DNA from: Sulfuritalea sp.
GTDB taxonomy: Bacteria; Pseudomonadota; Gammaproteobacteria; Burkholderiales; Rhodocyclaceae
Length of the DNA: 59,968 nucleotides
Assembly: GCA_021738385.1 (NCBI GenBank)
Contig: JAIPCF010000007.1
Span: 1 to 59,968, forward strand
Direction: 5' to 3'
The notes beneath the pieces are model-generated. The model saw only the letters and a list, made by a program, of their open reading frames with translations. It did not search any database and was not told where the DNA came from. Position numbers and translations under genes: made by a program. This document shows positions 5,245-32,687 of the stretch, piece after piece. The first letter of the stretch is position 1. Every line of letters begins with the position of its first letter.

Positions 5245-6714
5245 TCATGCGGTCAGATCCTTCAGCAGATGCACTTTCACCTTCCTGCCCTTGAGTTTTC
5301 CGGCGGACAACCTGCGCAATGCTTCTTGTGCAATGCTGCGCTCGACCGCGACATAGGTACAAGTGTCGGTCACGTTGATCTTGCCGATCTGCTCCTTGCT
5401 ATAACCGGCCTCTCCGGTCAGCGCGCCCAGCACATCGCCGGGACGGATTTTTTCCTTGCGCCCACCGAGGATCAACAACGTCACCATCGGCGGCAGCATC
5501 GGCTGCGGTGAACCGGATTTAGTCAGGGAGCCCTTCAGTTCGTCGAGTGAATGCCACTCGCAGTCAAACCCGAGCGCCTTCTCGATGTTGGCCACCCGCC
5601 CCTTCTGATTGCTGCTGACCAGACTGAAGGCCCAACCGGCCTGGTCGACACGACCCGTGCGTCCGATGCGATGCACATGCACTTCGGTATCCGGCGTGAC
5701 ATCGACGTTGATCACCGCCTCAAGCTGATCGATATCCAGACCGCGCGCGGCCACATCGGTGGCGACCAGAACCGAGCAGCTGCGATTGGCGAACTGCACC
5801 AGAACCTGGTCACGTTCGCGCTGTTCCAGTTCGCCGTGCAATGCCAGCGCAACGAATCCTTCGCTGCGTAAAAGCTGCACCAGATCACGACACTGCTGTC
5901 GGGTGTTGCAAAACGCCAGGGTACTGACCGGACGGTAGTGGCGCAGCAGCAGCGCGACAGCGGCCAGCCGCTGATCGTTGCTCACCTCGTAGAAGCGCTG
6001 GCGGATTTTGCCTTCCTCGTGCTGCTCAAGTAATTCGATTCGTTCCGGCTCGCGCAGGAATTGCCGGCTCAGCGCGGCAATTCCTTCGGGAAAGGTGGCG
6101 GAGAACAACAGCGTCTGCCGCTCTTTCGGGCAGGCTTTCGCTACGGTGACCATATCTTCGAAGAAGCCCATATCGAGCATGCGATCGGCTTCGTCCAGCA
6201 CCAGCGTATCGAGCGCTGCCAAATCGAGGCTGGCTCGTTGCAGGTGATCCATGATGCGCCCCGGCGTACCCACCACGACGTGGGCGCCGTGCTCAAGACT
6301 GGATATTTGCGGCCGCATCGGGCTACCACCGCACAAAGTAAGCACCTTGATATTTTCCGCGCCGCGCGCCAGTCGACGAACCTCCTGCGCTACCTGGTCG
6401 GCCAGTTCCCGCGTCGGACACAGCACCAGCGCCTGCACCGCAAAACGGCGCGGATTCAGCCGGGCCAGCAGGCTCAGCGCAAATGCCGCAGTCTTGCCGC
6501 TGCCGGTTTTGGCTTGTGCGATCAGATCGCGTCCAGCAAGCGCCAGCGGCAGGCTGGCAGCCTGAATTGGCGTCATGTGACGGTATCCCAACTGCTGCAA
6601 GTTTGTCAGCGTGGCGGGAGCCAACGGCAACTGATCGAACGACAAATTCGAAGCCGGAATTGGGCTGGTGACCGCCGACAAAGCGCCAGCGAGTAGGGAA
6701 GGTGATGAAGTCAT
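5245..6714 (-). CDS. dbpA: ATP-dependent RNA helicase DbpA
   Basis: A DEAD-box helicase acting on 23S rRNA hairpin 92 during large-subunit assembly. The 489-residue protein has a Q motif (about 30-55), Walker A AKTGSGKT, motif Ia PTRELA, DEAD in VLDEADRML, motif III SAT, and motif VI HRIGRTGR. It ends in the DbpA-specific RNA-binding domain (about 415-489, VTLLILGGRKEKIRPGDVLGAL), which separates it from RhlE and SrmB. ATG 6714 is preferred over the upstream TTG at 6720. No good Shine-Dalgarno is visible, but TATAAT lies on the same strand at 6725-6720, only six bases before the ATG. Three 40-bp hairpin repeats follow directly upstream. Confidence 0.93.
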   Translation of the reverse strand: MTSSPSLLAGALSAVTSPIPASNLSFDQLPLAPATLTNLQQLGYRHMTPIQAASLPLALAGRDLIAQAKTGSGKTAAFALSLLARLNPRRFAVQALVLCPTRELADQVAQEVRRLARGAENIKVLTLCGGSPMRPQISSLEHGAHVVVGTPGRIMDHLQRASLDLAALDTLVLDEADRMLDMGFFEDMVTVAKACPKERQTLLFSATFPEGIAALSRQFLREPERIELLEQHEEGKIRQRFYEVSNDQRLAAVALLLRHYRPVSTLAFCNTRQQCRDLVQLLRSEGFVALALHGELEQRERDQVLVQFANRSCSVLVATDVAARGLDIDQLEAVINVDVTPDTEVHVHRIGRTGRVDQAGWAFSLVSSNQKGRVANIEKALGFDCEWHSLDELKGSLTKSGSPQPMLPPMVTLLILGGRKEKIRPGDVLGALTGEAGYSKEQIGKINVTDTCTYVAVERSIAQEALRRLSAGKLKGRKVKVHLLKDLTA

Positions 6715-6722
6715 GCGCAATT

Positions 6723-6842
6723 ATATGTCTCTGTGCGCTTGCGCCTGAGACGGTATCCCGTGATATGTCTCAGTGTGCTTGCGCCTGAGACGGTATCCCG
6801 GGATATGTCTCGGTGCGCCTTCGCCTGAGACGATATTTCGGG
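6723..6842. repeat. Three contiguous 40-bp hairpin repeats upstream of dbpA
   Basis: Near-identical units begin at 6723, 6763 and 6803. Each carries GTCTC and GAGAC arms around a roughly 15-base loop; the second copy has a 7-bp stem, GTCTCAG/CTGAGAC. The units abut without spacers, so this is a tandem repeat and not CRISPR. The array ends eight bases from the dbpA start codon. The rest of the gap to 6993 shows nothing I recognise. Confidence 0.9.
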
Positions 6843-12627: not shown

Positions 12628-13530
12628 TCAGGCTAGATCGCGTCCCGGTCCGGATGTAATTCTTTCGTGATAGCGCGCCCGGTACAACAGGCGACGACGG
12701 TCCAGGCTTTCCGTGAAGCCCGCGCGGTCGTGCAGCACGTTGTTGCACACCAGTCCCATGCCCGGCTCCAGCCTCCCTCGCAGGGTCCATGGTGTGGGTG
12801 TCGCCAGCAAGCGGGCCAGTGCACCAACCGCAGTTGCTGTCGCGGCATCCTCACGCCATTCGATGCTGATGGTACGCGCCGTGTAGCGCATGTGAAGGAA
12901 GCCGGCATTGTCGAGCGAGAATACGGGACCGGACTGGGCCGCGCGCGCGACGCCCGTATCGTCATTGCGCGGCGGAATGATCATGGCGTCGGCCTGCGAG
13001 AGTGCGCGGATATGCCCGGGATTCTCGTCGCGCAGCAGGATGTAGGCGATCTCTGGGTCAAGCAACTGATTCTCGCCACCGGACACGGCGCTTTGTACGC
13101 AGTGAAGCACCATGCCGCGCACGGTACGCTCAGGCGTGTTGTAGTAACCGTCGGTGTGCCATTTGATCGGCTTGTCGGTGTAGGGAATGAACTCCCTGCG
13201 CTCACTGCGCTCTTCCGCGCCGCGTACCGATATTGGCGATATCGCATCATCGTCGGTAAGCCAGTGACTGTCGAGATGCAACAGGCCGAGTTGGGCACCC
13301 AGGCGGCGAGGAATTTCCTTGTCTGGATCCCCTGCGGTGTTACTGGCATAGATCGCCATATTGGCGCCTGCGCAATGTGCAAGCAAGCTGTCGAGCTCTT
13401 TTGTCGCCAGTGCGCGAGGATCGTCGAGCGCAACCAATATGTCCTCGATGCGGCGCGGTGCGCTGTCGAGTTTCTGCTCGCGCCACAGGCGATAGCTCGC
13501 GGGATCGTCGAGATCGAACGGGCCGGGCAT
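12628..13530 (-). CDS. TauD/TfdA-type Fe(II)/2-oxoglutarate dioxygenase
   Basis: A 300-residue member of the TauD/TfdA superfamily. The iron-binding facial triad is visible: HxD in IKWHTDGYYN and a distal His in CNNVLHDRAGF, followed by the Arg-rich 2-oxoglutarate site RRRLLYRARYH. Family members hydroxylate taurine, other sulfonates, carnitine precursors or amino acids. It is the last gene of a leftward operon containing TusA, DsrC-like and Cas6-like genes, so a sulfur-linked substrate is plausible but unproven. ATG 13530 (MPGPFDLDDP) is chosen because the upstream frame is repeat-derived. Confidence 0.82.
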   Translation of the reverse strand: MPGPFDLDDPASYRLWREQKLDSAPRRIEDILVALDDPRALATKELDSLLAHCAGANMAIYASNTAGDPDKEIPRRLGAQLGLLHLDSHWLTDDDAISPISVRGAEERSERREFIPYTDKPIKWHTDGYYNTPERTVRGMVLHCVQSAVSGGENQLLDPEIAYILLRDENPGHIRALSQADAMIIPPRNDDTGVARAAQSGPVFSLDNAGFLHMRYTARTISIEWREDAATATAVGALARLLATPTPWTLRGRLEPGMGLVCNNVLHDRAGFTESLDRRRLLYRARYHERITSGPGRDLA

Positions 13531-13534
13531 GGTA

Positions 13535-14221
13535 TCAGTCCTCCGTCGCGCCGTTGCCGACCCGCGAAGCGGAATTGACGGCCCCCGAAGGGGAATCCCC
13601 GTCATGCAAAGCCGAGGCATTCAGAGCACGCGAGCGCCGACTTTCCGAACTTTTTGCCTGGGGGTGAAACAGGCCCGCCAGCGTCTTCTCCAGCGCCTTG
13701 ATAGCCTCGGGTGACTCGATCTCCATCACCTGATCGACCGCCCAAAGTTGATCTTTTTCCGGCAATACTTCCTTCAAACAAGCGGAAAAACAGCGGCGAA
13801 ATCCGAAGTCCGGACCTTGCTCTGTATAGTCGTAGTCAGCGTATTCCGTACCCCGCTGATTGAACAGATCGAGAACGTGCTGATGACATTTGCCTGGCGC
13901 CACATCGAATAGCAACATGTCGCGGTTGTCCTCTATCGCCTCCGCAATACGCTGCGCCAGCGCCGTAGTGAACTCCAGGCGCTGTTCCGATGTCAATTCT
14001 CGGTAGGCGATGCGATCGGCAGCCAGAGCAAGATACACCATGAATTCGCAGACGAAATCGAAATAGGCGTTGCCCAGTTCGATGTCGTACTCGGCCTCGC
14101 GCATGCGCTTGATCGAGTCGATCGCAAGTTTCCAAGCCAGCATGGCAACAACGCCGGCCAGTTCCGCCATCGAACGCGGCTTGCCGCCGGCGTGAAAACT
14201 GGTGCGGATCCTGATTGCCAT
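13535..14221 (-). CDS. Unknown 228-residue protein in the sulfur operon
   Basis: I do not recognise this protein. The first 180 residues are helical (VVAMLAWKLAIDSIKRM, FVCEFMVYLALAADRIAYR) with three scattered Cys and no clear membrane helix or cofactor motif. The last 40 residues are Ser/Arg-rich and low-complexity (SSESRRSRALNAS). They are encoded by DNA resembling the window's REP-like repeats (about 13553-13650), so the C-terminus looks like a recent read-through extension. It lies five bases before the TauD-like gene and downstream of the DsrC-like gene. Its context suggests a sulfur-related role, but nothing in the sequence proves it. Confidence 0.7.
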   Translation of the reverse strand: MAIRIRTSFHAGGKPRSMAELAGVVAMLAWKLAIDSIKRMREAEYDIELGNAYFDFVCEFMVYLALAADRIAYRELTSEQRLEFTTALAQRIAEAIEDNRDMLLFDVAPGKCHQHVLDLFNQRGTEYADYDYTEQGPDFGFRRCFSACLKEVLPEKDQLWAVDQVMEIESPEAIKALEKTLAGLFHPQAKSSESRRSRALNASALHDGDSPSGAVNSASRVGNGATED

Positions 14222-14240
14222 GAATCAGGACATCAAACCA

Positions 14241-14346
14241 TTCACCACAGAGACACAATGGCACAGAGAAATGCAAAAAGAAATTGGTTCTCTCTCTGTG
14301 CCTCTGTTGCCTGCCCGCGAAGCGGAATTCCAGGCACGCAGGGCGC
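14241..14346. repeat. Inverted-repeat element plus REP-like unit between two operon genes
   Basis: Two elements lie side by side. The first has an arm TTCACCACAGAGACAC... at 14241-14270 and an imperfect complementary arm TTCTCTCTCTGTGCCTCTG at 14288-14306; it belongs to the same family as the element at 24657-24756. The second, 14306-14346, begins GTTGCCTGCCCGCGAAGCGG and matches 46482-46522 at about 37 of 41 positions. TGCCTG/CAGGCA can pair as a hairpin. A degenerate third copy begins at 13553. Confidence 0.85.
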
Positions 14347-14364: not shown

Positions 14365-14703
14365 TCAATAGCCTCCCTTACCCAGAGGCATGGGCAAACC
14401 GCCAACCTTACAGCCTTCTTTGGCAGCGCCGCCGTCGGGGAACAACTCGAACAGCAACGCGCTGTCGGCCTCTGGCATGTCACCCTCCGACTGCAAGCCC
14501 TTGATCAGATTGCGCATATTCGGCGTATGGCCATCTTCCTTGAACTTTTCGCGCAGGTAATTCACGACCTTCCAGTGCTGATCGGTCATTGTGATGCCAC
14601 AGGCTGCGGCGATGATATGAACCGCCTCTTCGCTGAAATCAGGTTCCAGAAGATAGCCGTATTCGTTGACTTCCTTTTCAACGCCGTTGATGACATAACT
14701 CAT
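14365..14703 (-). CDS. DsrC/TusE-family protein lacking the penultimate cysteine
   Basis: A 112-residue DsrC/TusE-family protein, a paralogue of the DsrC at 19852. The family fold is plain (DEYGYLLEPDFSEE-like N-terminus, MTDQHWKVVNYLREKF, MRNLIKGLQ, LFELFPDG). The C-terminal arm keeps one cysteine (C98, EGCKVGGLPMP), equivalent to CysB of DsrC. At the CysA position 11 residues later there is Lys, and three extra residues follow (GKGGY). TusE usually keeps CysA, so this pattern is the reverse. It cannot form the CysA-CysB trisulfide of true DsrC and may be regulatory or a modified sulfur carrier. It lies downstream of the tandem TusA gene. Confidence 0.87.
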   Translation of the reverse strand: MSYVINGVEKEVNEYGYLLEPDFSEEAVHIIAAACGITMTDQHWKVVNYLREKFKEDGHTPNMRNLIKGLQSEGDMPEADSALLFELFPDGGAAKEGCKVGGLPMPLGKGGY

Positions 14704-14794: not shown

Positions 14795-15277
14795 TCAGGT
14801 ACGACGCAGGTAAAACTCGTGAACTCCACGTCCGGATTCGTGCGAAAAAATCAGCTCTGCAGCACCTGCTCTGGCCCAGGAGGCGATGTCGTCCGCCGAG
14901 CCCGGGCAATCACTGACCAGTTGCAGCACTTCGCCGGCTTGCATGCCCTCCAACAATTTCTTTGCCTGCACGATGGGGCCGGGGCAGGAAACGCCGCGCA
15001 TGTCCAGCGTCACATGCGCAATCGGCGTGGCATTGGCGCCACCTGCGCGCTGGATCATGTAGGCCGTCTTGCCGTCCGCCTGCTTCTGGCTGCCAAGGAT
15101 CACGTTGCCAGTCACCTTTGCCCATGCGAACAGATCGTCCGCCGTGCCGGGGCAATCTGAGAGCAGGCGCAGGGTCTGACCTGGCTGCAGGTCGTCGATC
15201 AGTTTTTTGGCGCCGAGCAGCGGTGCCGGACAGGGCATGCCGCAGACATCAAGCGTTACGGTGGCGACTTCGGTCAT
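14795..15277 (-). CDS. Tandem TusA-domain fusion, sulfur carrier
   Basis: A 160-residue protein made of two complete TusA domains. Each has the sulfur-carrying CPxP motif: C16 in MPCPAP and C98 in VSCPGP. Each also has a second motif SDCPGxxxD (C42 and C124). TusA passes persulfide sulfur to TusD/DsrE in tRNA 2-thiolation and in oxidative dsr sulfur trafficking. A fused pair is unusual and might pass sulfur between its halves or bind two partners. A good Shine-Dalgarno (GAGGAGAAA) precedes ATG 15277. Neighbours are the Cas6-like gene upstream and the DsrC-like gene downstream. Confidence 0.92.
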   Translation of the reverse strand: MTEVATVTLDVCGMPCPAPLLGAKKLIDDLQPGQTLRLLSDCPGTADDLFAWAKVTGNVILGSQKQADGKTAYMIQRAGGANATPIAHVTLDMRGVSCPGPIVQAKKLLEGMQAGEVLQLVSDCPGSADDIASWARAGAAELIFSHESGRGVHEFYLRRT

Positions 15278-15296: not shown

Positions 15297-15890
15297 TTAG
15301 TCGCCGACAGCGACGACTGATTTATGTGGGACAAATATCCCGCATCCGAGCGCGCGGTGCTCGCCCAGACCGGTTTCCTGCATCGCCAGGGAATCGGCAT
15401 TCCCCAGACCATGCAACATCAGACTGAAACCGCGCACCCATCCCTCAGTGGTGCGCAGTTCTCTCGGTTTGCCTGTAATCAATTGCGGCTTAAGACCGCG
15501 TGCCGCCAGCAAAGATTCGCAACGCGCAAGAAATTCGATTTCTTCATCCGTTCCGACACTGACGAAATGAGAGTACACAACGCCTCGGGCCGGCAACAAG
15601 GGACGGACACTGCACGCACGCACCTCTAGTGCCACACCGTCCAGGTCCAGGCGTGCGCCCACCAAAAAGTCGGCGCTGGCGCTACGGTGAATCGGCAAGC
15701 GCAGTGCCAAACGGCTGCGACGACCGACGAAACGAACCTTGTTGCCGCGTGCCAGACCCATCAGCGGCAGGATACCGGCCTCCGGCTCTTCGTCGAACCA
15801 GGGAAGAAGACGACGCACCGCCGTCGCCAAGGCGCTGGCGTGGTCGTCCTCAAGCGTGGCATCCGCCAGTGCAAATACCACATCGACCAT
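15297..15890 (-). CDS. Cas6/Cmx6-family RAMP protein (type I-MYXAN-like) without CRISPR
   Basis: A 197-residue protein resembling the Cas6/Cmx6 family of CRISPR RNA endoribonucleases. Family hallmarks are the start MVDVVFALADATL, LPWFDEEPEAGILPLMG, GRRSRLALRLP, RGFSLMLHGL, and the glycine-rich RAMP loop LGEHRALGCGIFVPHKS at the C-terminus. No CRISPR array or other cas gene is in the window. It sits instead between a small unknown gene and a tandem TusA gene, divergent from dsrA. ATG 15890 gives the conserved N-terminus. Whether it cleaves or only binds RNA is unknown; its host RNA might be a tRNA or an mRNA. A dispersed 24-bp repeat lies inside it at 15665-15688. Confidence 0.82.
   Translation of the reverse strand: MVDVVFALADATLEDDHASALATAVRRLLPWFDEEPEAGILPLMGLARGNKVRFVGRRSRLALRLPIHRSASADFLVGARLDLDGVALEVRACSVRPLLPARGVVYSHFVSVGTDEEIEFLARCESLLAARGLKPQLITGKPRELRTTEGWVRGFSLMLHGLGNADSLAMQETGLGEHRALGCGIFVPHKSVVAVGD
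15665..15688 (+). repeat. Dispersed 24-bp repeat, copy 2 (inside the Cas6-like gene)
   Basis: AAAAGTCGGCGCTGGCGCTA plus four bases, related to copy 1. In the Cas6-like reading frame it encodes part of HRSASADFLVG, a different frame from the AVSPAPTF reading found in other genes. Confidence 0.6.
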
Positions 15891-15919: not shown

Positions 15920-16159
15920 TCAAGCAGTATCCTTTTCCTTGTCGGTCATTCCCGGCTGCGCCGCAGCCCAGGCGCAAAGCACTTTGCCCCAATGCGCGGC
16001 GGTCACCGGATCAACGTCAAAAATCGTGAAGCGACTTCGCTCACGAATGCGTGTGCGCAGCAAAGGCATACCGCCGGCCTCGAAGACGAATTCCTGCAAT
16101 TCAATCTCCTGATTGCCGATCGGTACGCGGAACTTGTCGAGCGAGGTAACGGTGTCCAA
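15920..16159 (-). CDS. Small unknown protein, first gene of the leftward sulfur operon
   Basis: A 79-residue soluble protein, probably starting at TTG 16159 (LDTVTSLDKFRVP) behind an AGGGA Shine-Dalgarno. An upstream in-frame ATG at 16207 would add 16 residues that look unlike a protein start. The core reads IELQEFVFEAGGMPLLRTRI and RFTIFDVDPVTAAHWGKVL. I have an impression of similar small proteins beside dsr genes, but cannot name the family. It has no cysteine after the chosen start. It leads the operon containing the Cas6-like and TusA genes, 29 bases upstream of the former. Confidence 0.72.
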   Translation of the reverse strand: MDTVTSLDKFRVPIGNQEIELQEFVFEAGGMPLLRTRIRERSRFTIFDVDPVTAAHWGKVLCAWAAAQPGMTDKEKDTA

Positions 16160-16248
16160 TGATTTCCCTTTTCGTGGAAGCAGACTATGGCACCAGCAAC
16201 GGGTCAACGACCATCACCGGATGGGAGTGCAAGCATATAACCCTTTAG

Positions 16249-16268
16249 GGTAGGTCCTATTACCTACC
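16249..16268. promoter_or_regulatory. Inverted repeat in the dsrA divergent promoter region
   Basis: GGTAGG (16249-16254) and CCTACC (16263-16268) flank an 8-base centre, TCCTATTA. A small palindrome CCCTTTAGGG overlaps the left arm (16241-16250). It lies in the 186-bp gap between dsrA and the leftward operon and could be the operator of a dsr regulator. No regulator gene is adjacent. Confidence 0.5.
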
Positions 16269-16345
16269 GGGAGTATGGTTTGTGCACCGCACAGACTCAT
16301 ACCATTGTCCCATCACGTTACCCCCCGACAACGAGGAGAAGACCC

Positions 16346-17641
16346 ATGGCCAAGCCCATGCATCCAACACCGAACCTGGATCAACTGGAAAGCGGCCCCT
16401 GGCCGAGTTTTGTTACCGGCCTCAAGCGTCTGGCCCAAGACAAGGATTACGCGGTCGATATCCTCGGCCACCTCGAGCACTCCTACCAGACCCGCAAGGG
16501 CTATTGGAAGGGAGGCACCGTCGGTGTGCGTGGCTACGGCGGCGGCATCATCCCGCGCTTCACGGAAATCAAGGATGAGGCCGGCAACCCGGTTTTCAAG
16601 GATGCCGCGGAATTTCACACCCTGCGTGTCATGCCACCTCCCGGCATGCACTACAACACGGCGACGCTGCGCCAGTTCTGCGATATCTGGGAAAAGCACG
16701 GCTCCGGCCTGATCGCCTTCCATGGCCAGTCGGGCGACATCATGTTCCAGGGCGCCACCACGGAAAACGTGCAGAAGGCCTTTGATGAAATCAACGATAT
16801 GGGTTTTGACCTCGGCGGCGCCGGCCCGGCCGTGCGGACTTCGATGTCCTGCGTCGGCGCCTCGCGCTGCGAGCAGTCCTGCTACGACGAAGCCAAGGCA
16901 CACCGCGAAGTGCTCAATACCTTCCTCGACGACATCCACCGTCCCGCCTTGCCGTACAAGTTCAAGTTCAAGTTCTCCGGCTGCCCCAACGACTGCATGA
17001 ATTCCATTCAGCGTTCGGACATGGCCGTGATCGGCACCTGGCGCGACAACATCCGCACCGATGAAGCGCTGGCCAAAAAATGGTTCGCCAAGCACGGCAT
17101 GAATGAACTGGTCAACGACGTCGTGGCCCGCTGCCCGACCAAGGCAATCCAGATCAAGGAAATCAAGGATGTACGCAAGACTGACAACATCAGCAGCGTC
17201 GCGGTAAATGACAGTCAGGCACTGGAGATTGACAACAAGGACTGCGTGCGCTGCATGCACTGCATCAACGTCATGACAGGCGCTCTGGCGACCGGTGTCG
17301 ACAAGGGCGCGACGATTCTTGTCGGCGGCAAGCGCACCCTGAAGATTGGCGACCTGATGGGCACCGTGATTATTCCCTTCATGCCGCTGAAGACGGATGA
17401 GGACTTTGAGAAGCTGGTCGACCTTGGCCAACGGACCATCGACTTCTTCGCCGAGAACGCGCTGGAGCACGAGCGAACGGGTGAAATGATCGAGCGCATC
17501 GGCCTGGTCAATTTCCTTGAAGGCATCGAGGTTGATATCGATCCCAACATGGTGTCGACGCCGCGCATGAATCCCTATGTGAATACCGCCGGCTGGGACG
17601 AGGAAGTCGCCCGGATGACCGCCAAAAAAGCTGCTGCCTGA
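16346..17641 (+). CDS. dsrA: Reverse-acting dissimilatory sulfite reductase, alpha subunit
   Basis: Catalytic subunit of siroheme sulfite reductase, here probably oxidising sulfane sulfur bound to DsrC to sulfite in the cytoplasm. The 431 residues carry the siroheme-[4Fe-4S] ligands C-x5-C (CVGASRC) and C-x3-C (CPNDC). The inserted ferredoxin domain has CPTKAI and CVRCMHC. The DsrEFH and DsrL genes downstream mark it as the oxidative type. ATG 16346 has a strong GAGGAG Shine-Dalgarno; the longer frame to 16280 is rejected. First gene of dsrABEFHCMKLJOPNR. Confidence 0.96.
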   Translation: MAKPMHPTPNLDQLESGPWPSFVTGLKRLAQDKDYAVDILGHLEHSYQTRKGYWKGGTVGVRGYGGGIIPRFTEIKDEAGNPVFKDAAEFHTLRVMPPPGMHYNTATLRQFCDIWEKHGSGLIAFHGQSGDIMFQGATTENVQKAFDEINDMGFDLGGAGPAVRTSMSCVGASRCEQSCYDEAKAHREVLNTFLDDIHRPALPYKFKFKFSGCPNDCMNSIQRSDMAVIGTWRDNIRTDEALAKKWFAKHGMNELVNDVVARCPTKAIQIKEIKDVRKTDNISSVAVNDSQALEIDNKDCVRCMHCINVMTGALATGVDKGATILVGGKRTLKIGDLMGTVIIPFMPLKTDEDFEKLVDLGQRTIDFFAENALEHERTGEMIERIGLVNFLEGIEVDIDPNMVSTPRMNPYVNTAGWDEEVARMTAKKAAA

Positions 17642-17652
17642 GGAGATTGAGC

Positions 17653-18741
17653 ATGAATGCACCTACCCCCGCCGCCCCGCTGCGCAAAGCCATCGAATGC
17701 GGTGTGCCGGACAACAAACCGCACCTGCATCCAACGATGCTGAAGAACTACGGCAACTGGAAGTACCACGATCGGCCGCGTCCCGGTGTGCTGCACCATG
17801 TATCGCACAGCGGCGATGAAATCTGGACCGTTCGTGCCGGCACCCAACGCCAGATGGACGTATGGACCATCCGCAAGCTGTGCGACATCGCCGACAAATA
17901 TGCAGAGGGATTCGTCCGCTTCACCATTCGCTCCAACATCGAGTACATGGTCGCCGATCAGTCCAAGGTCGATCCGCTGATCGCAGAACTGGAAACTTCC
18001 GGCTTCCCTGTCGGCGGTACCGGCAACTCGGTATCGATGGTGTCACACACCCAGGGCTGGCTGCACTGCGACATCCCCGGCACCGATGCCTCGGGCGTGG
18101 TCAAGTCGATGATGGACGAGCTCTATAACGAGTTCAAGACCGAAGAGATGCCAAATCGCGTGCATCTGTCGACCTCCTGCTGCGAGATCAACTGCGGCGG
18201 CCAGGCCGACATCGCGATCATCATCCAGCACACCAAACCGCCCAAGATCAATCACGATCTGGTCGCCAATGTCTGCGAACGTCCCACCGTGGTTGCCCGC
18301 TGTCCGGTGGCTGCTATCCGCCCGGCGCTGGTCAACGGCAAGCCCTCGCTCGAAGTGGACGAGAAGAAATGCATCTGCTGCGGCGCCTGCTACCCTCCCT
18401 GCCCGCCGATGCAGATCAACGATCCGGAACATTCGAAGCTGGCGATCTGGGTCGGTGGCAAGAACTCCAACGCGCGCGGCAAACCGACCTTCATGAAAAT
18501 GGTGGCGTCCGGCTTGCCCAACAACGCGCCGCGCTGGCCCGAAGTCAATGCCGCCGTCGGCAACATCCTGCGTACCTACAAGGCCGACGCCCGCCCCTGG
18601 GAACGCCTCTCCGACTGGATCGATCGCATCGGCTGGCCACGCTTCTTTGAAAAAACCGGCTTGCCCTTTACCAAGTATTTGATTGACGACTGGCGTGGTT
18701 CGCGTGCCAATCTCAACGCCTCGACCCACATCCGTTTCTGA
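17653..18741 (+). CDS. dsrB: Reverse-acting dissimilatory sulfite reductase, beta subunit
   Basis: Partner of DsrA in the alpha2beta2 sulfite reductase. The 362 residues contain the beta-subunit siroheme/cluster motif STSCCEINCGGQADI and a ferredoxin domain CICCGACYPPCPPM. The C-terminal part ends in RANLNASTHIRF. ATG 17653 follows GAGGAGATTGAGC after the dsrA stop; the in-frame TTG at 17647 lies between that Shine-Dalgarno and the ATG and is less likely. Gap to dsrA is 11 bases. Confidence 0.96.
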   Translation: MNAPTPAAPLRKAIECGVPDNKPHLHPTMLKNYGNWKYHDRPRPGVLHHVSHSGDEIWTVRAGTQRQMDVWTIRKLCDIADKYAEGFVRFTIRSNIEYMVADQSKVDPLIAELETSGFPVGGTGNSVSMVSHTQGWLHCDIPGTDASGVVKSMMDELYNEFKTEEMPNRVHLSTSCCEINCGGQADIAIIIQHTKPPKINHDLVANVCERPTVVARCPVAAIRPALVNGKPSLEVDEKKCICCGACYPPCPPMQINDPEHSKLAIWVGGKNSNARGKPTFMKMVASGLPNNAPRWPEVNAAVGNILRTYKADARPWERLSDWIDRIGWPRFFEKTGLPFTKYLIDDWRGSRANLNASTHIRF

Positions 18742-18763: not shown

Positions 18764-19123
18764 ATGAAAATAGCTGTCACCATCAACGAAGGTCCCTACC
18801 AGCATCAGGCCAGCGATTCTGCTTACCTGTTCTGCAAGGCCGCACTGGAAAAGGGCCACGAGATTCGTCGCGTGTTCTTCTATAACGACGGAGTCAACAA
18901 CGCGTCATCGCTGACCGAGCCACCGCAGGATGATCGCAACATCGTCACCCGCTGGTCCAAGCTGGCGGAAGAACACAAGCTGGATCTCGTGGTCTGCGTT
19001 GCTGCCGCCCTGCGCAGAGGCATTCGCGACGAGAACCTGGCCCCCGGCTTTCGCATCTCGGGCCTCGGTCAACTGGTAGAAGCCGGCATTGAAGCCGACC
19101 GGCTAGTGACGTTTGGAGACTGA
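18764..19123 (+). CDS. dsrE: Sulfur-transfer protein DsrE
   Basis: Sulfurtransferase subunit of the cytoplasmic DsrE2F2H2 complex that passes persulfide sulfur from TusA to DsrC. The 119-residue protein holds its active cysteine at C78 (LVVCVAAALRRG), the position known for Allochromatium DsrE. DsrEFH is diagnostic of oxidative dsr systems. It ends one base before the start of dsrF. Confidence 0.94.
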   Translation: MKIAVTINEGPYQHQASDSAYLFCKAALEKGHEIRRVFFYNDGVNNASSLTEPPQDDRNIVTRWSKLAEEHKLDLVVCVAAALRRGIRDENLAPGFRISGLGQLVEAGIEADRLVTFGD

Positions 19124-19124
19124 C

Positions 19125-19496
19125 ATGAGCGAAGGAACAATCAAGAAGTTCATGTTCGTCAATCGCAAGGCCCCCTACGGCACCATCTACGCGCTCGAAT
19201 CGCTGGAAGTGGTGCTGATTACCGCCGCCTTCGATCAGGACGTCAGTCTCGTCTTCATGGATGACGGCGTATTTCAGTTAAAAAAGGGTCAGCAGACCAA
19301 GGGCATCGAGAACAAGAACTTCTCGCCCACCTATCGCGCTCTGGATGGCTACGACATTGAAAAGCTCTATGTCGAAGAAGAAGCGCTGGCAGCTCGCGGC
19401 TTGAGCGAAGACGACCTGCTGGTTGACGTTATTGTCATGTCGCGTGCCGAGTTGGGCAAACTGATGAACGACATGGATGTCGTTCTCAGTTTCTAA
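19125..19496 (+). CDS. dsrF: Sulfur-transfer protein DsrF
   Basis: Second subunit of the DsrEFH complex, TusC-like, with no cysteine in its 123 residues, in line with its non-carrier role. Recognisable sequence: KFMFVNRKAPYGTIYALE and FMDDGVFQLKKGQ. ATG 19125 is used; the two codons upstream are read from the end of dsrE. Confidence 0.92.
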   Translation: MSEGTIKKFMFVNRKAPYGTIYALESLEVVLITAAFDQDVSLVFMDDGVFQLKKGQQTKGIENKNFSPTYRALDGYDIEKLYVEEEALAARGLSEDDLLVDVIVMSRAELGKLMNDMDVVLSF

Positions 19497-19509
19497 GGGA
19501 GAAAACTGG

Positions 19510-19809
19510 ATGCTACACATCATCAATAAATCTCCGGCTGAACGCAACGCGCTGGATTCCTGCCTGAACGTGGCACAGGACGGCGGCGTCATCCTGCTGA
19601 TCGAGGATGCGGTTTACGCAGCCACACAAGGCAACGAAGCGGAAGCCAAGCTGCGCGACGCACTGTCGCGTTTCAAAGTATTTGCGCTTGCGCCGGACCT
19701 CGAAGCGCGCGGCATGGGCGATCGCGTCATGGAAGGCGTGGCCACTGTCGATTATGGCGGCTTCGTCGATCTCGTCACCGAACACAAGAACTGTCAATCC
19801 TGGCTTTAA
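19510..19809 (+). CDS. dsrH: Sulfur-transfer protein DsrH
   Basis: Third subunit of DsrEFH, TusB-like, 99 residues. It has the conserved cysteine near the N-terminus (C18, LDSCLNV), and LLIEDAVYAA and YGGFVDLVTEH are typical. ATG 19510 follows an AGGGAG Shine-Dalgarno. It lies between dsrF and dsrC in the classical order. Confidence 0.92.
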   Translation: MLHIINKSPAERNALDSCLNVAQDGGVILLIEDAVYAATQGNEAEAKLRDALSRFKVFALAPDLEARGMGDRVMEGVATVDYGGFVDLVTEHKNCQSWL

Positions 19810-19851
19810 ACAAAGTACTTCATTACCCCGTTTTTCACCAAGGAGAATCAC

Positions 19852-20187
19852 ATGTCCACCATCGAAGTCAATGGCAAGTCCTACGAAACCGACGAAGAAG
19901 GCTATCTGGTCAACCTCACCGAATGGAACGAGGACGTCGGCAACTACCTTGCGCAAACCGAAAGTGTCGAGATGACCGACCAGCACTGGGAAGTAATCAA
20001 CTTCCTGCGCGACTACTACAACGAGTTCCAGATCGCTCCGGCGGTACGCGTGCTTACCAAGGCTATCGGCAAGAAGCTCGGCGCCGACAAAGGTACCAGC
20101 CAGTATCTGTACGACCTGTTCCCCTACGGTCCCGCCAAGCAGGCCTGCAAGATCGCCGGACTGCCCAAGCCGACCGGCTGCGTCTAA
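19852..20187 (+). CDS. dsrC: Sulfur-carrier protein DsrC
   Basis: Soluble carrier presenting sulfane sulfur to DsrAB and releasing electrons through DsrK. The 111-residue protein keeps both redox cysteines of the flexible C-terminal arm, C99 (QACKIAG) and the penultimate C110 (PTGCV). It is therefore a true DsrC, unlike the paralogue at 14365. AAGGAG precedes the ATG. A 132-bp gap follows before dsrM; it holds GGCGCC at 20226 and 20256 followed by a short T-run, perhaps a weak attenuator favouring dsrC expression. Confidence 0.96.
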   Translation: MSTIEVNGKSYETDEEGYLVNLTEWNEDVGNYLAQTESVEMTDQHWEVINFLRDYYNEFQIAPAVRVLTKAIGKKLGADKGTSQYLYDLFPYGPAKQACKIAGLPKPTGCV

Positions 20188-20319: not shown

Positions 20320-21045
20320 ATGAATTATCTGTTCGCGCTGCTGTTCTACGCCGCCACGTTGATTTTCGTGGGCGGTGTAGCGTACCGGGTCTACGATTAC
20401 GCGCGCACCCCGGCACCGCTGAAGATTCCTACCACGCCGGCGCCAACCACGAGCGGCGGTGTGGTCTTCCGCATGTTCCGCGAAGTGGTGTTTTTTGAAA
20501 GCCTGTTCAAATCCAACCTGTGGATATGGGCACTGGGCTGGCTGTTCCATGTCGGGCTGGCATTGGTGCTGCTGCGCCATCTACGCTACTTCACAGAACC
20601 GGTGAACTTCATCATCGCCTTCATCCAGCCCTTCGGCGTGTATGCCGGTTTGGCCATGGCGGCCGGTCTGGCCGGGCTTTGGGCGCGACGCGTTTTGGTC
20701 GAGCGCATACGTTACATCTCGACCCCCTCCGATCATCTGATGCTGGCGCTGCTGCTCGGCATCGCCATCACCGGTCTGCTGATGAAGTTCGTCATGCATA
20801 CCGACATTGTTGCCGTCAAGACCTTCTTCCTCGGTCTGATGGTTTTCGAGATCAATCCGCTACCGTCGCATCCGGGGCTGTATCTGCACTTGTCGATGGT
20901 GGCATTGCTGATGATCATCTTCCCGGTCAGCAAACTGTTGCATGCCCCCGGTGTGTTCTTCTCGCCCACCCGCAACCAGGTGGACAACCCGCGCGAAACG
21001 CGGCACCTGGCGCCCTGGGCTGCCAAACTCGAAGCGAAAAACTGA
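20320..21045 (+). CDS. dsrM: DsrM, heme b membrane subunit of DsrMKJOP
   Basis: NarI-like cytochrome b that exchanges electrons between DsrK and the quinone pool. The 241 residues contain about five membrane helices (starting LFALLFYAATLIFVGGVAY) and His residues in WLFHVGLALVLLRH and LYLHLSMVALLMII for heme b. The C-terminal cytoplasmic tail ends just before dsrK. An ATG at 20320 follows a weak ribosome-binding site. Confidence 0.92.
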   Translation: MNYLFALLFYAATLIFVGGVAYRVYDYARTPAPLKIPTTPAPTTSGGVVFRMFREVVFFESLFKSNLWIWALGWLFHVGLALVLLRHLRYFTEPVNFIIAFIQPFGVYAGLAMAAGLAGLWARRVLVERIRYISTPSDHLMLALLLGIAITGLLMKFVMHTDIVAVKTFFLGLMVFEINPLPSHPGLYLHLSMVALLMIIFPVSKLLHAPGVFFSPTRNQVDNPRETRHLAPWAAKLEAKN

Positions 21046-21046
21046 C

Positions 21047-22645
21047 ATGGCTGACGAGACAACTCCGGTCGCCGAAGTACCCAAGCCGGCTCCTGCAGCG
21101 CCTGCCAAGCCAGCCGAAAAGGCCAAGGTGGTTGCCCCCGCATTCCGGGATTTTTCAACCATCACGGCGCTGACGCCTGATGCGATGCTTGGATCCAATC
21201 CCTACCCGGCGTCCGTCGCACACAACGAAGCGCTGGGCTTTCCCGGCGAACTGGCTGAAGGCTGGGAGCAAAAGGCGGTTGCCAAGATGGGCGACCTGCT
21301 CGGCAAGTACCGCTCGCTCAAGGTGTACATGGATGCCTGCGTGCATTGTGGTGCCTGCACCGACAAGTGTCACTATTTCATCGGCACCGGTGATCCGAAA
21401 AACATGCCGGTGGCGCGCCAGGATTTGATGCGTTCGGTGTATCGCCGCTATTACACACTGCCCGGCAAGTTGTTCCCCAAGCTGGTCGGGGCTCGCGACA
21501 TGAGCAAGGATGTGCTGGACGACTGGTTCCGCTACTACAACCAGTGTTCCGAGTGCCGCCGCTGCTCTGTGTTCTGTCCCTACGGTATTGATACTGCCGA
21601 AGTCACCATGGCGGCCAAGGAAATCATGGACAGCGTGGGTGTCGGTCACAAGTATGTGAACGAGATCATGGGCAAGGTACACAAGATCGGCAACAACCTT
21701 GGCTTGCCCGGCCCGGCGCTGGAAAACACACTGGAAGGACTGGAAGAAGACGTACTGGAAGACACCGGAGCCGCCGTCAAGTATCCGCTTGATGTCAAGG
21801 GTGCCGAAGTACTGTTGGTCACGCCATCTGCCGACTTCTTTGCCGAGCCGCATGTTGACAGCCTGATCGGCTACGGCAAGGTATTCCACGCCGCCGGCAT
21901 TTCCTGGACGCTATCCAGCAAGGCCTCCGAGGCCGGCAACTTCGGCATGTTCATCGGCAACTACGACCAGATGCGCAAGATCGCCATGCGCATTCGCGAA
22001 GCGGCGCTGGAACTCGGTGTCAAGCGCATTGTGGTTGGCGAATGCGGCCACGCCTGGCGCATCGCTTACTCCTTCTGGAACACGCTGACCGGCGTTGGCG
22101 CCGGCGCCAACGACCCATTCGCCATCGAGTTGCAAAAACAGCTCGACCACAACTACAAGCAACCCTCGCACATCTGCGAAGTGACCTGGGACCTGATCCA
22201 GGCCGGCCGACTGAAATTCAACAAGGACGCCAACGACCACCGCATCGTTACCTTCCACGATTCCTGCAACGTCGCACGCGGCTCGCGCATGGGAGATTAC
22301 GCCGGCGGCCAGTTCGACATCCCGCGCCACATCATCAAGGCCGTGACCAATCACTACGTCGAGATGTCGCCCGACACGACGCACGAAAGGACATTTTGCT
22401 GCGGCGGTGGTGGTGGCCTGCTCAGCGACGAGTTGATGGACATCCGCGTCAAGGGCGCCCTGCCACGCATGGAAGCGTTGAAGCGGATCGCGGACAAGAA
22501 TGGTGTCAATTTCATGGCCACCATTTGCGCCATCTGCAAGGCCCAGTTCAGCAAAGTGCTGCCCTACTACGGCTTCAAGATGAGCATGGTCGGCGGCGTG
22601 CACCAACTGGTCAGCACCGCGATCGTGCTCGACAACGAACAATGA
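21047..22645 (+). CDS. dsrK: DsrK, HdrD-like iron-sulfur subunit of DsrMKJOP
   Basis: Catalytic subunit that oxidises or reduces the DsrC disulfide/trisulfide. The 532-residue protein has an Ala/Pro-rich N-terminal linker (to about 45). Two [4Fe-4S] motifs follow (CVHCGACTDKCH, CSECRRCSVFCP). The C-terminal CCG-type cluster site has FHDSCNVARG, FCCGGGGG and ICAICKAQF. ATG 21047 lies one base past the dsrM stop. It is anchored through DsrM. Confidence 0.95.
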   Translation: MADETTPVAEVPKPAPAAPAKPAEKAKVVAPAFRDFSTITALTPDAMLGSNPYPASVAHNEALGFPGELAEGWEQKAVAKMGDLLGKYRSLKVYMDACVHCGACTDKCHYFIGTGDPKNMPVARQDLMRSVYRRYYTLPGKLFPKLVGARDMSKDVLDDWFRYYNQCSECRRCSVFCPYGIDTAEVTMAAKEIMDSVGVGHKYVNEIMGKVHKIGNNLGLPGPALENTLEGLEEDVLEDTGAAVKYPLDVKGAEVLLVTPSADFFAEPHVDSLIGYGKVFHAAGISWTLSSKASEAGNFGMFIGNYDQMRKIAMRIREAALELGVKRIVVGECGHAWRIAYSFWNTLTGVGAGANDPFAIELQKQLDHNYKQPSHICEVTWDLIQAGRLKFNKDANDHRIVTFHDSCNVARGSRMGDYAGGQFDIPRHIIKAVTNHYVEMSPDTTHERTFCCGGGGGLLSDELMDIRVKGALPRMEALKRIADKNGVNFMATICAICKAQFSKVLPYYGFKMSMVGGVHQLVSTAIVLDNEQ

Positions 22646-22672
22646 CGAACAAGACATTAATGGAGACCTCCC

Positions 22673-24643
22673 ATGTCCGCGACGACTGAAAACCAAGCTG
22701 AAAAACTCAACTTCCGCCGCTACAAGGAAGGCGACACAAAGGTAAAGCGCTGGCAACAGCAGATTTTCCAGGCCAGCTACTCCTACAAATGCCCGACCTA
22801 TGTGCAGTCAACGCCGCCTTGTCAGGGCTCCTGCCCGTCCGGTGAGGACATCCGCGGCTATCTGAACATCGTGCGCGGCATAGAAAAACCCCCGGTCGGC
22901 GCCGATGGCAAGCCGACCATGAGTTGGCAGGAATACGCTTGGCGTCGACTGACCGAAGCCAATCCGCTGCCCTCGGTGATGGGCCGCGTCTGCCCCGCAC
23001 CCTGTGAGACCGGCTGCAATCGCAATGAAGTCGAAGACCATGTCGGCATCAACTCGGTCGAGCACTATCTGGGCGACTGGGCGATCCAGAACAATCTGAA
23101 GTTCATTGCGCCGGAAAAGAAAACCGGCAAGAAGGTCGCCATCATCGGCGGTGGCCCAGCCGGCCTCTCGGCGGCATACCAGCTAAGCATGAAGGGCCAC
23201 AGCTGCACCATATTTGACGAGCACGAGTTCCTCGGCGGCATGATGCGCTACGGTATTCCCGGCTACCGCACACCGCGCGAAACACTCGATTCCGAAATCC
23301 AGCGCATTCTCGATCTGGGTGTTGAGGTCCATCTCAAGACCCGCATCGGCACCGATGTCACCCTGGAGCAGTTGCGTGAAAGCTATGACGCGATCTTCCT
23401 CGGTCTCGGTGCCCAGGCCGGCCGCGCACTACCACTGCCTGGAGACCCGGCTGAGCATTCCGCACCAAACGTCGTAACCGCCACATCCTTCCTGCGTGCC
23501 TTCAATGACGGCCGCCTGAAAACTGTCGGCCACCGTGTCGTTGTCGTTGGGGGTGGCGATACCTCGATGGACGTAGCCACCGTGGCGCGTCGTCTGGGCC
23601 ACATCGAGAAAGTCAATCCGACCGATTTCGAAGCGGCCATCGCCGGTCATCTGGCGCAGGATGTCGCCGATGTCTCGCTGCGCCAGGGCGCGGAAGTTAC
23701 TTTGACTTCGGTCTACATGACAGCCAGCAAGCCTGAAATCGAGCATGCCGAAGCTGAAGGCATCACCATCATGGGTGGCTGGATGCCGATCGGCGTGGTC
23801 AAAGGTCCGGATGGACGCGCTACCGCACTGCGTGTGATGCAGTGCGAAGCGAAAATGGTATCCGGCCGCCTCGACATCAAGAAAATTGAAGGCACTGAAA
23901 AGGAACTGCCAGCCGATCTGATTGTTTCCGCCATCGGTCAGGCTGTCGATTTCACCGGCATCGAAGAATTCGACTCAGGCAAGGGCATGATCGCCGCCGA
24001 CAAAAACTACCAACTCACGGGCCAACCGGGTGTGTTCGCCGGCGGTGACGTGATCCGCCCGCACCTGCTCACCACTGCCATCGGTCACGGCAACATCGCC
24101 GCTGACGGCATTGACCGCTTCCTTGCCGGCCAGGAAATGGTGCGCCGGCCCAAGATCGACGTGCATGTCTTCGACCTGATGCGCAAGTATGTCGAAAAGG
24201 GCGTCGAATTGGGCAAGATCGATGCTCCGCTCACCGGTACCGACAAAAGCAAGGAAGTGGTACACAACTACGAGAACCGTTCCGACCGCTATGTCATACC
24301 GCACGACCAACTCTTCCTCGGTCACTTCCAGTACACCGCACGCAACAAACGTCACGTCACCCATCTGAACAAGGATTCGGCACTGGGCAACTTCGACGAG
24401 CGTATCGATGCACTCTCCGAAGCGGAGGTGATTGCCGAGGCAAAGCGCTGCATGAGTTGTGGTCAATGTTTCGAATGCGACAACTGCGTCGTGTATTGCC
24501 CGCAAACTGCAGTGTATAAGGTCAAGAAGAACGAAACCATGACCGGTCGCTACGTTGCCACCGACTACGACAAATGCATCGGCTGCCACATCTGCGCTGA
24601 TGTGTGCCCGACTGGTTACATCCAGATGGGTCTCGGTGAGTAA
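22673..24643 (+). CDS. dsrL: DsrL, NAD(P)-linked iron-sulfur flavoprotein
   Basis: Cytoplasmic oxidoreductase that links DsrAB to NAD(P)(H); essential for sulfur oxidation in Allochromatium. The 656-residue protein has an N-terminal Cys-rich region (CQGSCPSGEDI, CPAPCETGC) and a GltD-like FAD site (VAIIGGGPAGLSAAY at about 150). The NAD(P) site is VVVVGGGDTSMDVA (about 290). The C-terminal ferredoxin domain has CMSCGQCFECDNC and CIGCHICADVCPTG. Its presence supports an oxidative rather than sulfate-reducing pathway. A Shine-Dalgarno (GGAGA) precedes ATG 22673. Confidence 0.95.
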   Translation: MSATTENQAEKLNFRRYKEGDTKVKRWQQQIFQASYSYKCPTYVQSTPPCQGSCPSGEDIRGYLNIVRGIEKPPVGADGKPTMSWQEYAWRRLTEANPLPSVMGRVCPAPCETGCNRNEVEDHVGINSVEHYLGDWAIQNNLKFIAPEKKTGKKVAIIGGGPAGLSAAYQLSMKGHSCTIFDEHEFLGGMMRYGIPGYRTPRETLDSEIQRILDLGVEVHLKTRIGTDVTLEQLRESYDAIFLGLGAQAGRALPLPGDPAEHSAPNVVTATSFLRAFNDGRLKTVGHRVVVVGGGDTSMDVATVARRLGHIEKVNPTDFEAAIAGHLAQDVADVSLRQGAEVTLTSVYMTASKPEIEHAEAEGITIMGGWMPIGVVKGPDGRATALRVMQCEAKMVSGRLDIKKIEGTEKELPADLIVSAIGQAVDFTGIEEFDSGKGMIAADKNYQLTGQPGVFAGGDVIRPHLLTTAIGHGNIAADGIDRFLAGQEMVRRPKIDVHVFDLMRKYVEKGVELGKIDAPLTGTDKSKEVVHNYENRSDRYVIPHDQLFLGHFQYTARNKRHVTHLNKDSALGNFDERIDALSEAEVIAEAKRCMSCGQCFECDNCVVYCPQTAVYKVKKNETMTGRYVATDYDKCIGCHICADVCPTGYIQMGLGE

Positions 24644-24656
24644 GATTCAAAGGCAT

Positions 24657-24756
24657 TCACCACAGAGGCACAGAGACACAGAGAACAGCAAAACCATGAA
24701 TAAACGCGAAGCGATTTTCTCGGCCTTTCCTCTGTGCCTCTGTGTCTCTGTGGTGA
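24657..24756. repeat. 100-bp inverted-repeat element overlapping the dsrJ start
   Basis: Arms of about 28 bp, starting TCACCACAGAGGCACAGAGA (24657-24684) and ending CTGTGTCTCTGTGGTGA (to 24756), flank a 44-bp centre. The annotated dsrJ ATG (24696) is in the centre and the right arm encodes PLCLCVSVV of the signal peptide. A related but decayed element is at 14241-14309. Confidence 0.88.
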
Positions 24757-25130
24757 GGTTTGTGCCTTTCGCCCTGGCCTTGCTCGCCGTGTCACCAGCG
24801 CCGACTTTTGCCGGCGATGGCACTCGTACGGACAAACCGGTTATCGAGATTGCAAAACCAGGCAAATGCATTGCGCCCGCCGAAGAGATGCGCCGCAACC
24901 ACATGGATATGCTCAAGCATCAGCGTGACCGTACTTTGCGTCTGGGTATCCGCGGCGAACCGGTAACGCTCAACGGTTGCATCGAGTGCCACGCCAGCCA
25001 GAAGACCGGCTCAGTTCTGGGTGAAGGCAATTTTTGTCAAAGTTGCCACGCCTATGCCGCCGTAAAGCTAGATTGTTTCGAGTGCCACCAGCCCAAGGCC
25101 GGATTCAAGGCAACGGGAGTGAAACCATGA
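24696..25130 (+). CDS. dsrJ: DsrJ, periplasmic triheme cytochrome c of DsrMKJOP
   Basis: Periplasmic electron-transfer subunit of the DsrMKJOP complex. Three heme motifs are visible: CIECH, CQSCH and CFECH, in the last 50 residues. With ATG 24696 the protein has 144 residues and its signal peptide begins MNKREAIFSAF, with a hydrophobic stretch partly encoded by the inverted repeat. The alternative in-frame GTG 24753 (MRFVPFALALLAVSPAPTFAG) would leave the repeat outside the gene and still give a good signal peptide. The AVSPAPTF at the cleavage region derives from a second dispersed repeat (24786-24809). It overlaps dsrO by ATGA. Confidence 0.88.
   Translation: MNKREAIFSAFPLCLCVSVVRFVPFALALLAVSPAPTFAGDGTRTDKPVIEIAKPGKCIAPAEEMRRNHMDMLKHQRDRTLRLGIRGEPVTLNGCIECHASQKTGSVLGEGNFCQSCHAYAAVKLDCFECHQPKAGFKATGVKP
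24786..24809 (-). repeat. Dispersed 24-bp repeat, copy 3 (dsrJ signal peptide)
   Basis: On the plus strand it begins GCCGTGTCACCAGCGCCGAC; its complement is identical to copy 39344-39367 at 23 of 24 positions. In dsrJ it encodes AVSPAPTF at the signal-peptide cleavage region. Confidence 0.8.
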
Positions 25131-27108: not shown

Positions 27109-27128
27109 ACCTGCCCGGCCGGCGCGCA

Positions 27129-28571: not shown

Positions 28572-28909
28572 CCTCCCCTGCCATTGAGCAGATTGTCCGG
28601 GCGGCAGCAGAACAGAGCGGCAGCGGCGGTCAACCGCTGCCCATGCTGCGCGTCGCCGCCAAGCACGACGAACACGACGGGGAACTGGTCTACGGCATGG
28701 GCTTCGACGAGGAACGCGAAGACGACCTGCTAATCGACGGTGGTGGAGTCACCGTTCTGATATCGCCGCACAGTCAGCCACTGCTGGAGAACACCACGCT
28801 CGATTTTGCCGAAATTCAACCCGGTGAATTCCAGTTCATTTTTCGCAGTGGCTGCACGGTTCCGACAACCGAAAAAAGCTGCGGAGGCTGTGGCGGCGGT
28901 TGTTCCTGA
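28559..28909 (+). CDS. dsrR: DsrR, IscA-like A-type protein
   Basis: A 116-residue A-type (IscA/HesB-fold) protein. DsrR of Allochromatium shares this fold but lacks the IscA cluster cysteines and influences dsr expression. This one starts MFTLTSPAIEQIVRAAAEQ and ends in a Cys/Gly-rich tail (SCGGCGGGCS) that might bind metal or Fe-S. It overlaps dsrN by 13 bases and closes the canonical dsr order. Confidence 0.85.
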   Translation: MFTLTSPAIEQIVRAAAEQSGSGGQPLPMLRVAAKHDEHDGELVYGMGFDEEREDDLLIDGGGVTVLISPHSQPLLENTTLDFAEIQPGEFQFIFRSGCTVPTTEKSCGGCGGGCS

Positions 28910-32663: not shown

Positions 32664-32687
32664 GCCGTCTCACCAGCGCCGACTTTT
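32664..32687 (-). repeat. Dispersed 24-bp repeat, copy 4 (intergenic)
   Basis: The only intergenic copy, between the molybdopterin enzyme and RidA genes. Plus strand begins GCCGTCTCACCAGCGCCGAC and differs from the dsrJ copy at one position. Confidence 0.75.

Follow-up and report, generated by a model that had tools for sequence, protein, structure and literature searches.

A Cas6-family gene retained alongside dsrAB in reverse-Dsr sulfur oxidation loci

The closest described relatives of the protein reported here are Cas6 proteins of CRISPR systems. The Cas6/Cmx6 protein of type I-MYXAN CRISPR, represented by proteins encoded by cyanobacterial plasmids (L109 to L114), belongs to the same Pfam and NCBIfam family (TIGR02807) and shares with it the glycine loop G-x-G-x2-R-x2-GCG-x-F, Asp16, Arg64, and, mostly, His17. 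The best match in both sequence and fold is the Cas6 protein of the type I-B CRISPR-associated transposon Cascade (PDB entries 8fcj and 8fcu, whose titles describe a part of Cascade). Type I-C and type II CRISPR systems use Cas5 and RNase III, and neither is known to use Cas6. The host cluster of the gene is the reverse-Dsr cluster (dsrABEFHCMKLJOPNR), in which gene order is conserved. A neighboring gene encodes a member of the TusE/DsrC family (PF04358) but the tail of this protein, GGY or AGY, lacks the penultimate Cys; cysteine-less DsrC homologues are known as RspA.

The locus analyzed here departs from each of these systems. The window, a stretch of 59,968 nucleotides from a Sulfuritalea sp. 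contig (JAIPCF010000007.1), carries a Cas6-family gene on the minus strand (15297 to 15890). Unlike that of type I-MYXAN systems, this gene is not adjacent to cas genes or an array, and the dsr-type proteins form a separate branch of the tree; unlike that of 8fcj and 8fcu, it has no adjacent Cascade genes. The dsr-type proteins also differ from six CRISPR proteins by Glu117, which replaces Pro, and by Arg58 and His189-Lys190. In contrast to full reverse-Dsr loci from outside the class (none of four with Cas6), the locus of the window carries the gene.

In a 2023 mLife study of mangrove metagenome-assembled genomes, a figure legend names cas6 among the colored genes on a dissimilatory sulfur map (PMC10989796); the available text of that article contains cas6 once and CRISPR not at all, and no interpretation of cas6 was found in it. 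No discussion of Cas6 as a Dsr component was found in the available parts of the articles surveyed (PMC5944118, PMC10952691, PMC5728499, PMC3150331, PMC7540712, PMC8889020, PMC10989796, PMC3397948, and PMC3368242), a survey lying mostly outside subscription papers.

Identity and conserved residues of the Cas6-family protein

The open reading frame extends from 15890 to 15297, starts with ATG, and comprises 197 codons. An earlier note, made from the letters of the window, had placed its product in the Cas6/Cmx6 family, and profile searches confirmed this assignment above curated cut-offs, with matches to PF09559 (162.7 bits, E = 1.3e-47, cut-off 26.7) and to NCBIfam TIGR02807, cas6_cmx6 (119.3 bits, cut-off 98.85), in addition to the PADLOC Cas6 model (160.1 bits). 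The gene is present in one copy in its own assembly (82% complete). A single-sequence search placed a Cas6 from the Cascade of a type I-B CRISPR transposon closest among solved proteins (E = 2.3e-11), and a profile of 33 relatives searched against the PDB returned the type I-B Cascade Cas6 of 8fcj (E = 1.9e-32). The structural model was predicted with moderate to weak confidence (mean pLDDT of 65.7, and <50 for the final 38 residues, including the glycine loop) and consisted of two successive beta-alpha-beta-beta-alpha units, the double ferredoxin-like arrangement of the RAMP fold that had been anticipated. The top Foldseek match of this model was 8fcu_B (E = 1.9e-10, TM score of 0.55), lower matches comprising the Cas6 entries 5yi6, 3pkm, and 4c8y interspersed with ferredoxin-like folds other than Cas6. 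The gene at 15297 to 15890 is a true Cas6-family gene.

The C-terminal glycine-rich loop was present, as the earlier note had stated, and alignment of 97 dsr-associated proteins revealed G176, G182, and G184 in 100% and G174 in 98% of the sequences. Four residues (R64, G176, G182, and G184) were the same in every protein of the dsr set and in all six CRISPR proteins, and Q171, D16, and, in most sequences, C183 and H17 were common to both. The dsr set was marked by R58 (98%), E117 (98%), H189 (91%), and K190 (96%), position 117 being occupied by Pro in the six CRISPR proteins. The candidate active-site residue His17 was found in 97% of 47 proteins and in 76% of 50 proteins of the order of the window (Tyr in 20%). 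Since Tyr occupies this position in one-fifth of the latter proteins and Asn in the transposon Cas6 of 8fcj, we make no claim for a catalytic site. All 29 proteins listed from other members of the class (L079 to L107) have an N-terminal tail in which Trp follows F, Y, L, or H and precedes mostly acidic residues, a feature that was not seen in the other proteins compared; in the residue alignment, homologue starts were set by a rule that removes this tail from the sequences of that group. The dsr-type Cas6 evolves faster than DsrB (mean identities of 39% and 78%, respectively, over 51 loci), and the distances of the two proteins correlate (r = 0.69, 51 loci), as expected from shared descent.

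Linkage to the reverse-Dsr gene set

Downstream from the Cas6 gene and on the same minus strand, the window carries a tandem TusA-domain gene (14795 to 15277, two PF01206 stretches), a DsrC-family gene whose product ends in KGGY without the penultimate Cys (14365 to 14703; PF04358, 94.1 bits), a conserved gene of the same run (13535 to 14221) whose position is kept in relatives and whose product had no match in Pfam or NCBIfam searched up to an E value of 1, and a gene for a TauD-like Fe(II)/2-oxoglutarate dioxygenase (12628 to 13533; PF02668, 48.6 bits). TauD-like genes were found near dsrA in most of the opened loci, both within and outside the class. On the opposite side of Cas6 lies a small gene (about 15920 to 16162, minus strand, start codon uncertain) encoding a DUF6967 protein (PF22295, 100.1 bits), which was detected in each of the 40 longer loci from the order, followed by the divergent dsrABEFHC genes and the remaining dsr operon. 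The genes that we take to be dsrA (16346 to 17641) and dsrB (17653 to 18741, used as the query in co-occurrence searches) are on the plus strand, dsrA being conserved across loci. They are followed on the same strand by open frames in conserved order presumed to be dsrE, dsrF, dsrH, and dsrC (18764 to 20187) and by a region (20320 to 28909) that we assume from gene order to contain dsrM, dsrK, dsrL, a dsrJ region, dsrO, dsrP, dsrN, and dsrR. The tandem TusA and DsrC-family neighbors on the same strand and the divergent dsrA gene thus stand as the earlier note had described them, with the correction that the DUF6967 gene intervenes between Cas6 and dsrA; strand and spacing suggest that the Cas6 gene is cotranscribed with the TusA and DsrC-family genes.

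Elsewhere, the window encodes a Sec-dependent nitrous-oxide reductase (52986 to 55274) and a YcaO protein of the S12 methylthiotransferase type (2210 to 4078). The 15-mer CCAGCGCCGACTTTT, which resembles a DNA uptake sequence, has 172 exact copies in the genome versus 0 for the reversed control; in the window, it is located inside the Cas6 gene (15665 to 15679, minus strand) and at 5137 to 5151, 24795 to 24809, and 32673 to 32687. A dispersed CACAGAGACACAGAG-type repeat occurs twice in the dsr region (14239 to 14278 and 24654 to 24693).

Other genomes were grouped as beta (the order of the window), gamma (all other members of that class), and alpha (genomes not in that class), labels whose taxon names were inferred. 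Cas6 was found in 48 of 149 other relatives searched, and in all 48 carriers dsrA was divergent from Cas6 and located beyond the DUF6967 gene, with Cas6 identities down to about 31% (40 loci viewed in stretches of 9 to 17 kb and 8 in short stretches). In these relatives, Cas6 and dsrB occurred together in 46 genomes, Cas6 alone in 2, and dsrB alone in 4 (p = 3e-31, own genome excluded). A sample of 368 other genomes of the class contained Cas6 in 117 and dsrB in 117, with both genes in 108, Cas6 only in 9, and dsrB only in 9 (p = 1.4e-70, a value calculated for a total of 369 rather than 368, own genome excluded); Cas6 counts include matches with an inner stop (G182, G236, G483, G497, and G388). 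When both genes were on the same contig in the class sample, 73 of the 75 pairs were separated by no more than 8 kb, with opposite strands in every case and a median distance of 3.0 kb; another 33 pairs were split over different contigs. For the first 20 class hits, the surrounding sequence was viewed over as much as 17 kb, and dsrA was visible in 15; the other hits were located by coordinates only. The dsr linkage is not confined to a single strain, so that, with the profile and fold matches given above, neither of the outcomes that would have refuted the earlier note was obtained.

All nine Cas6-only genomes of the class were inspected: three carried dsrA on the Cas6 contig (one of them also dsrB), one carried dsrN and dsrR, and in the others the contig was short or ended close to Cas6. 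Of the nine dsrB-only genomes of the class, the five other than G359, G386, G418, and G502 were inspected, and in each the contig ended within 2 kb upstream of dsrA. Of the four dsrB-only relatives, the two other than G013 and G015 were inspected. In G008, the contig begins inside dsrA. G033 (84% complete) has a dsr locus with TusA, DsrC-like, and DUF6967 genes (L155, 3561 to 4339), and Cas6 is absent from both the locus and the assembly; this is a real loss of Cas6, i.e., a natural deletion. Both genes were kept at a distance from each other in two genomes of one family (1.4 to 1.5 Mb), G257 (40 kb apart) and G472 (518 kb apart), in which Cas6 is divergent beside an RNase III-like gene (L122, 8279 to 9674; L127, 8166 to 9544) in a neighborhood that we read as rnc, era, and recO. 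In G246 and G206, both genes are present, but dsrA is absent from the stretch around Cas6. Four genomes of 1.0 to 1.1 Mb (G188, G290, G403, and G435) have retained Cas6.

Outside the class, none of the 46 dsrB-containing genomes among 248 sampled harbored Cas6. Ten were opened, four of which displayed the full dsrABEFHCMKL order and six lacked dsrEFH in the stretch. Upstream of the four full loci we found TauD (4/4), DUF6967 (3/4), and cysG (3/4) but not Cas6 (0/4). The absence of Cas6 from these 46 genomes and from G033 indicates that Cas6 is not a requirement of Dsr chemistry itself. Thus, Cas6 is part of the form of the reverse-Dsr pathway found in one class rather than of Dsr chemistry in general.

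Of 51 loci, 48 carried a DsrC-family gene next to Cas6, and none was found there in L049, L059, and L131. The product of this gene ended in GGY or AGY in 48/48 cases, had the Cys that DsrC and TusE carry at the penultimate position in none (0/48), and showed no cysteine at all in 31/48, sequences being counted from the alignment start so that earlier cysteines would be missed. This lack of the penultimate Cys would leave a regulatory or structural role for the DsrC-like protein. Only within the order of the window did loci carry a tandem TusA gene next to Cas6; several loci of that order lack it, and none was detected in the gamma loci. A conserved protein of 67 to 69 residues is encoded next to the DsrC-like gene (L132, 7351 to 7554; L143, 4030 to 4239), with relatives in 31 loci, some from the same genome.

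Independence from CRISPR and search for an RNA target

No repeat-spacer array was detected in the window by a search for direct repeats of at least 22 nt within 1.5 kb, the sole such repeats being a 40-nt tandem triplet without spacers (6723 to 6842) and a short degenerate family (13541 to 14329). Comparison of 57 of the 58 nonoverlapping frames of at least 110 residues with PADLOC gave, besides Cas6, only Cas3 models (E values of at least 3e-18) among the best 25 of 50 matched families; these matches most likely correspond to a DbpA-type RNA helicase (5248 to 6720), with a Cas3 score far under the cut-off. The claim that the window has neither an array nor another cas gene was borne out within this scope. 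Elsewhere, the same genome carries a type I-C system (contig C58) and a type II system (contig C51), and the 12-repeat array of L163 belongs to the type II locus.

In relatives, the genes beside Cas6 are dsr genes, not cas genes. A tree of 104 proteins separated 97 dsr-type sequences from CRISPR-linked Cas6 by a branch with support of 100/98; the gamma sequences formed one group (99/97) and the beta sequences required two changes, in a tree that had no outgroup and an unsettled bootstrap and in which the CRISPR comparison set was limited to six cyanobacterial proteins and one Gloeobacter protein. The dsr-type Cas6 no longer serves CRISPR. On the Gloeobacter plasmid (L108, 9974 to 12546), a Cmx6-type cas6 gene is located amid hypothetical genes, a PAPS-reductase-family gene, and a cupin gene, without other annotated cas genes in the stretch, and it is possibly another non-CRISPR Cas6.

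No conserved RNA target of Cas6 was found in dsr loci by spacer folding, dyad searches, and comparison with Rfam. Hairpins in the dsrC-dsrM spacer were rejected, as they turn over within the genus among the sequences listed and are just as strong where Cas6 is lacking, in G033 and in four loci from outside the class. The dsrH-dsrC spacer gave no Cas6-specific signal. Spacers of at least 40 nt between dsrB and dsrE folded strongly (z ≤ -3) in 9/13 loci with Cas6 and in 1/2 loci without it (L038 to L060 and L115 to L160), the latter being too few to judge. A search of the region from 11 to 31 kb against Rfam returned nothing at the gathering score, and low-scoring miRNA-like matches at 24.65 kb correspond to the CACAGAGACACAGAG-type repeat.

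The divergent DUF6967/dsrA promoter region of the window contains a conserved palindromic region (16239 to 16294) that is similar across the genus sequences compared. The dyad CTAYCCC-N4-GGGRTAG occurs here and upstream of dsrA in L043, L051, L116, L129, L131, L133, and L157. Of 75 loci, 32 had a dyad of any form upstream of dsrA, and in 21 of these its spacer measured 4 nt; in single-base shuffles, the two groups gave no more than 2 and 1, and the 10 loci outside the class had no dyad. A similar dyad is present in G033, which lacks Cas6. A Cas6-bound hairpin was set aside for a DNA operator, and the dyad is probably the operator of some regulator.

Possible function of the dsr-associated Cas6

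Taken as a whole, our preferred reading, to which we assign a probability of about 0.5, is that Cas6 has been recruited, free of CRISPR, into the reverse-Dsr set, where it would bind dsr-related RNA beside a DsrC paralogue. A RAMP protein of the Cas6/Cmx6 type would have been recruited early in one class (Gammaproteobacteria sensu lato with the betaproteobacteria included, as we infer the names), would have joined the reverse-Dsr sulfur oxidation gene set, and would since have been retained alongside dsrAB. The domesticated protein most likely still binds, and perhaps cuts, structured RNA tied to dsr expression, and it may act jointly with the cysteine-poor DsrC paralogue encoded next to it. 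RNA binding, the regulatory role, and the partnership with the DsrC-like protein are each put forward as presumptive. An RNA-binding and possibly RNA-cutting factor for dsr-related RNA is the likeliest mechanism, at slightly under an even chance; it is suggested by the retained RAMP core and loop, the strict dsr link, the promoter region divergent with dsrA, and the RNase III-like neighbor in two genomes, and it is weakened by the lack of a conserved hairpin, the occurrence of dsrC-dsrM hairpins without Cas6, and the resemblance of the dyad to a DNA operator. That a domesticated Cas6 endoribonuclease is a dedicated RNA-processing or RNA-binding factor and a standard component of reverse-Dsr across Gammaproteobacteria, reduced genomes included, is a more tentative proposal. 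RNA-level control of dsr, one of two roles raised by the earlier note, is possible.

The explanation ranking next, which we hold to be doubtful, is that a RAMP protein that lost its RNA function now serves as a protein scaffold or aids assembly of the Dsr machinery (DsrC, DsrEFH, DsrAB, and TusA). Such a role would account for the co-occurrence with dsr, for the conservation of R58, E117, and H189-K190 in the dsr set only, for the Trp-acidic N-terminal tail in the rest of the class, and for the failure to find an RNA target. However, residues common with CRISPR Cas6 (R64, G174, G176, G182, G184, and mostly C183) are kept across the 97 dsr proteins, and selection on the RNA-contacting surface thus seems to persist. 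The other role raised earlier, sulfur transfer to RNA (tRNA thiolation) with TusA and a TusE/DsrC-like protein, was prompted by the adjoining tandem TusA and DsrC-like genes; it is weakened by the patchy distribution of tandem TusA and is improbable, since none of the 48 DsrC-like neighbors has the penultimate Cys through which that protein would act.

The two remaining explanations are very improbable. Cas6 could be a crRNA endonuclease acting in trans on arrays located elsewhere in the genome, as the host genome contains both cas genes and an array, and as cas1 is present in 27 of the 48 Cas6-bearing relatives. This association is weak (p = 0.03), cas1 is absent from the other 21, the dsrB association is far stronger, and the host systems are of types that use Cas5 and RNase III; service in trans was discarded on the basis of these cas1 statistics and of the host's own systems. 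Likewise, a functionless, neutral passenger of the dsr locus might be lost, as occurred once in G033, and might diverge faster than DsrB, as Cas6 does, but it would hardly conserve residues over 97 proteins or be retained in genomes close to 1 Mb in size and at sites away from dsrAB.

The regular presence of a CRISPR-free Cas6 in dsr clusters points to an undescribed role for a Cas protein in energy metabolism. Since a curated model calls the protein of the window a CRISPR-associated Cas6, the corresponding genes of sulfur oxidizers are likely counted as cas genes. For the Dsr field, the gene represents a component whose presence, among the genomes sampled from one class, nearly always goes together with that of dsrB. 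If our reading is correct, a Cas protein would have been kept for respiration, not immunity, in a main sulfur-oxidizing pathway, including in genomes of about 1 Mb.
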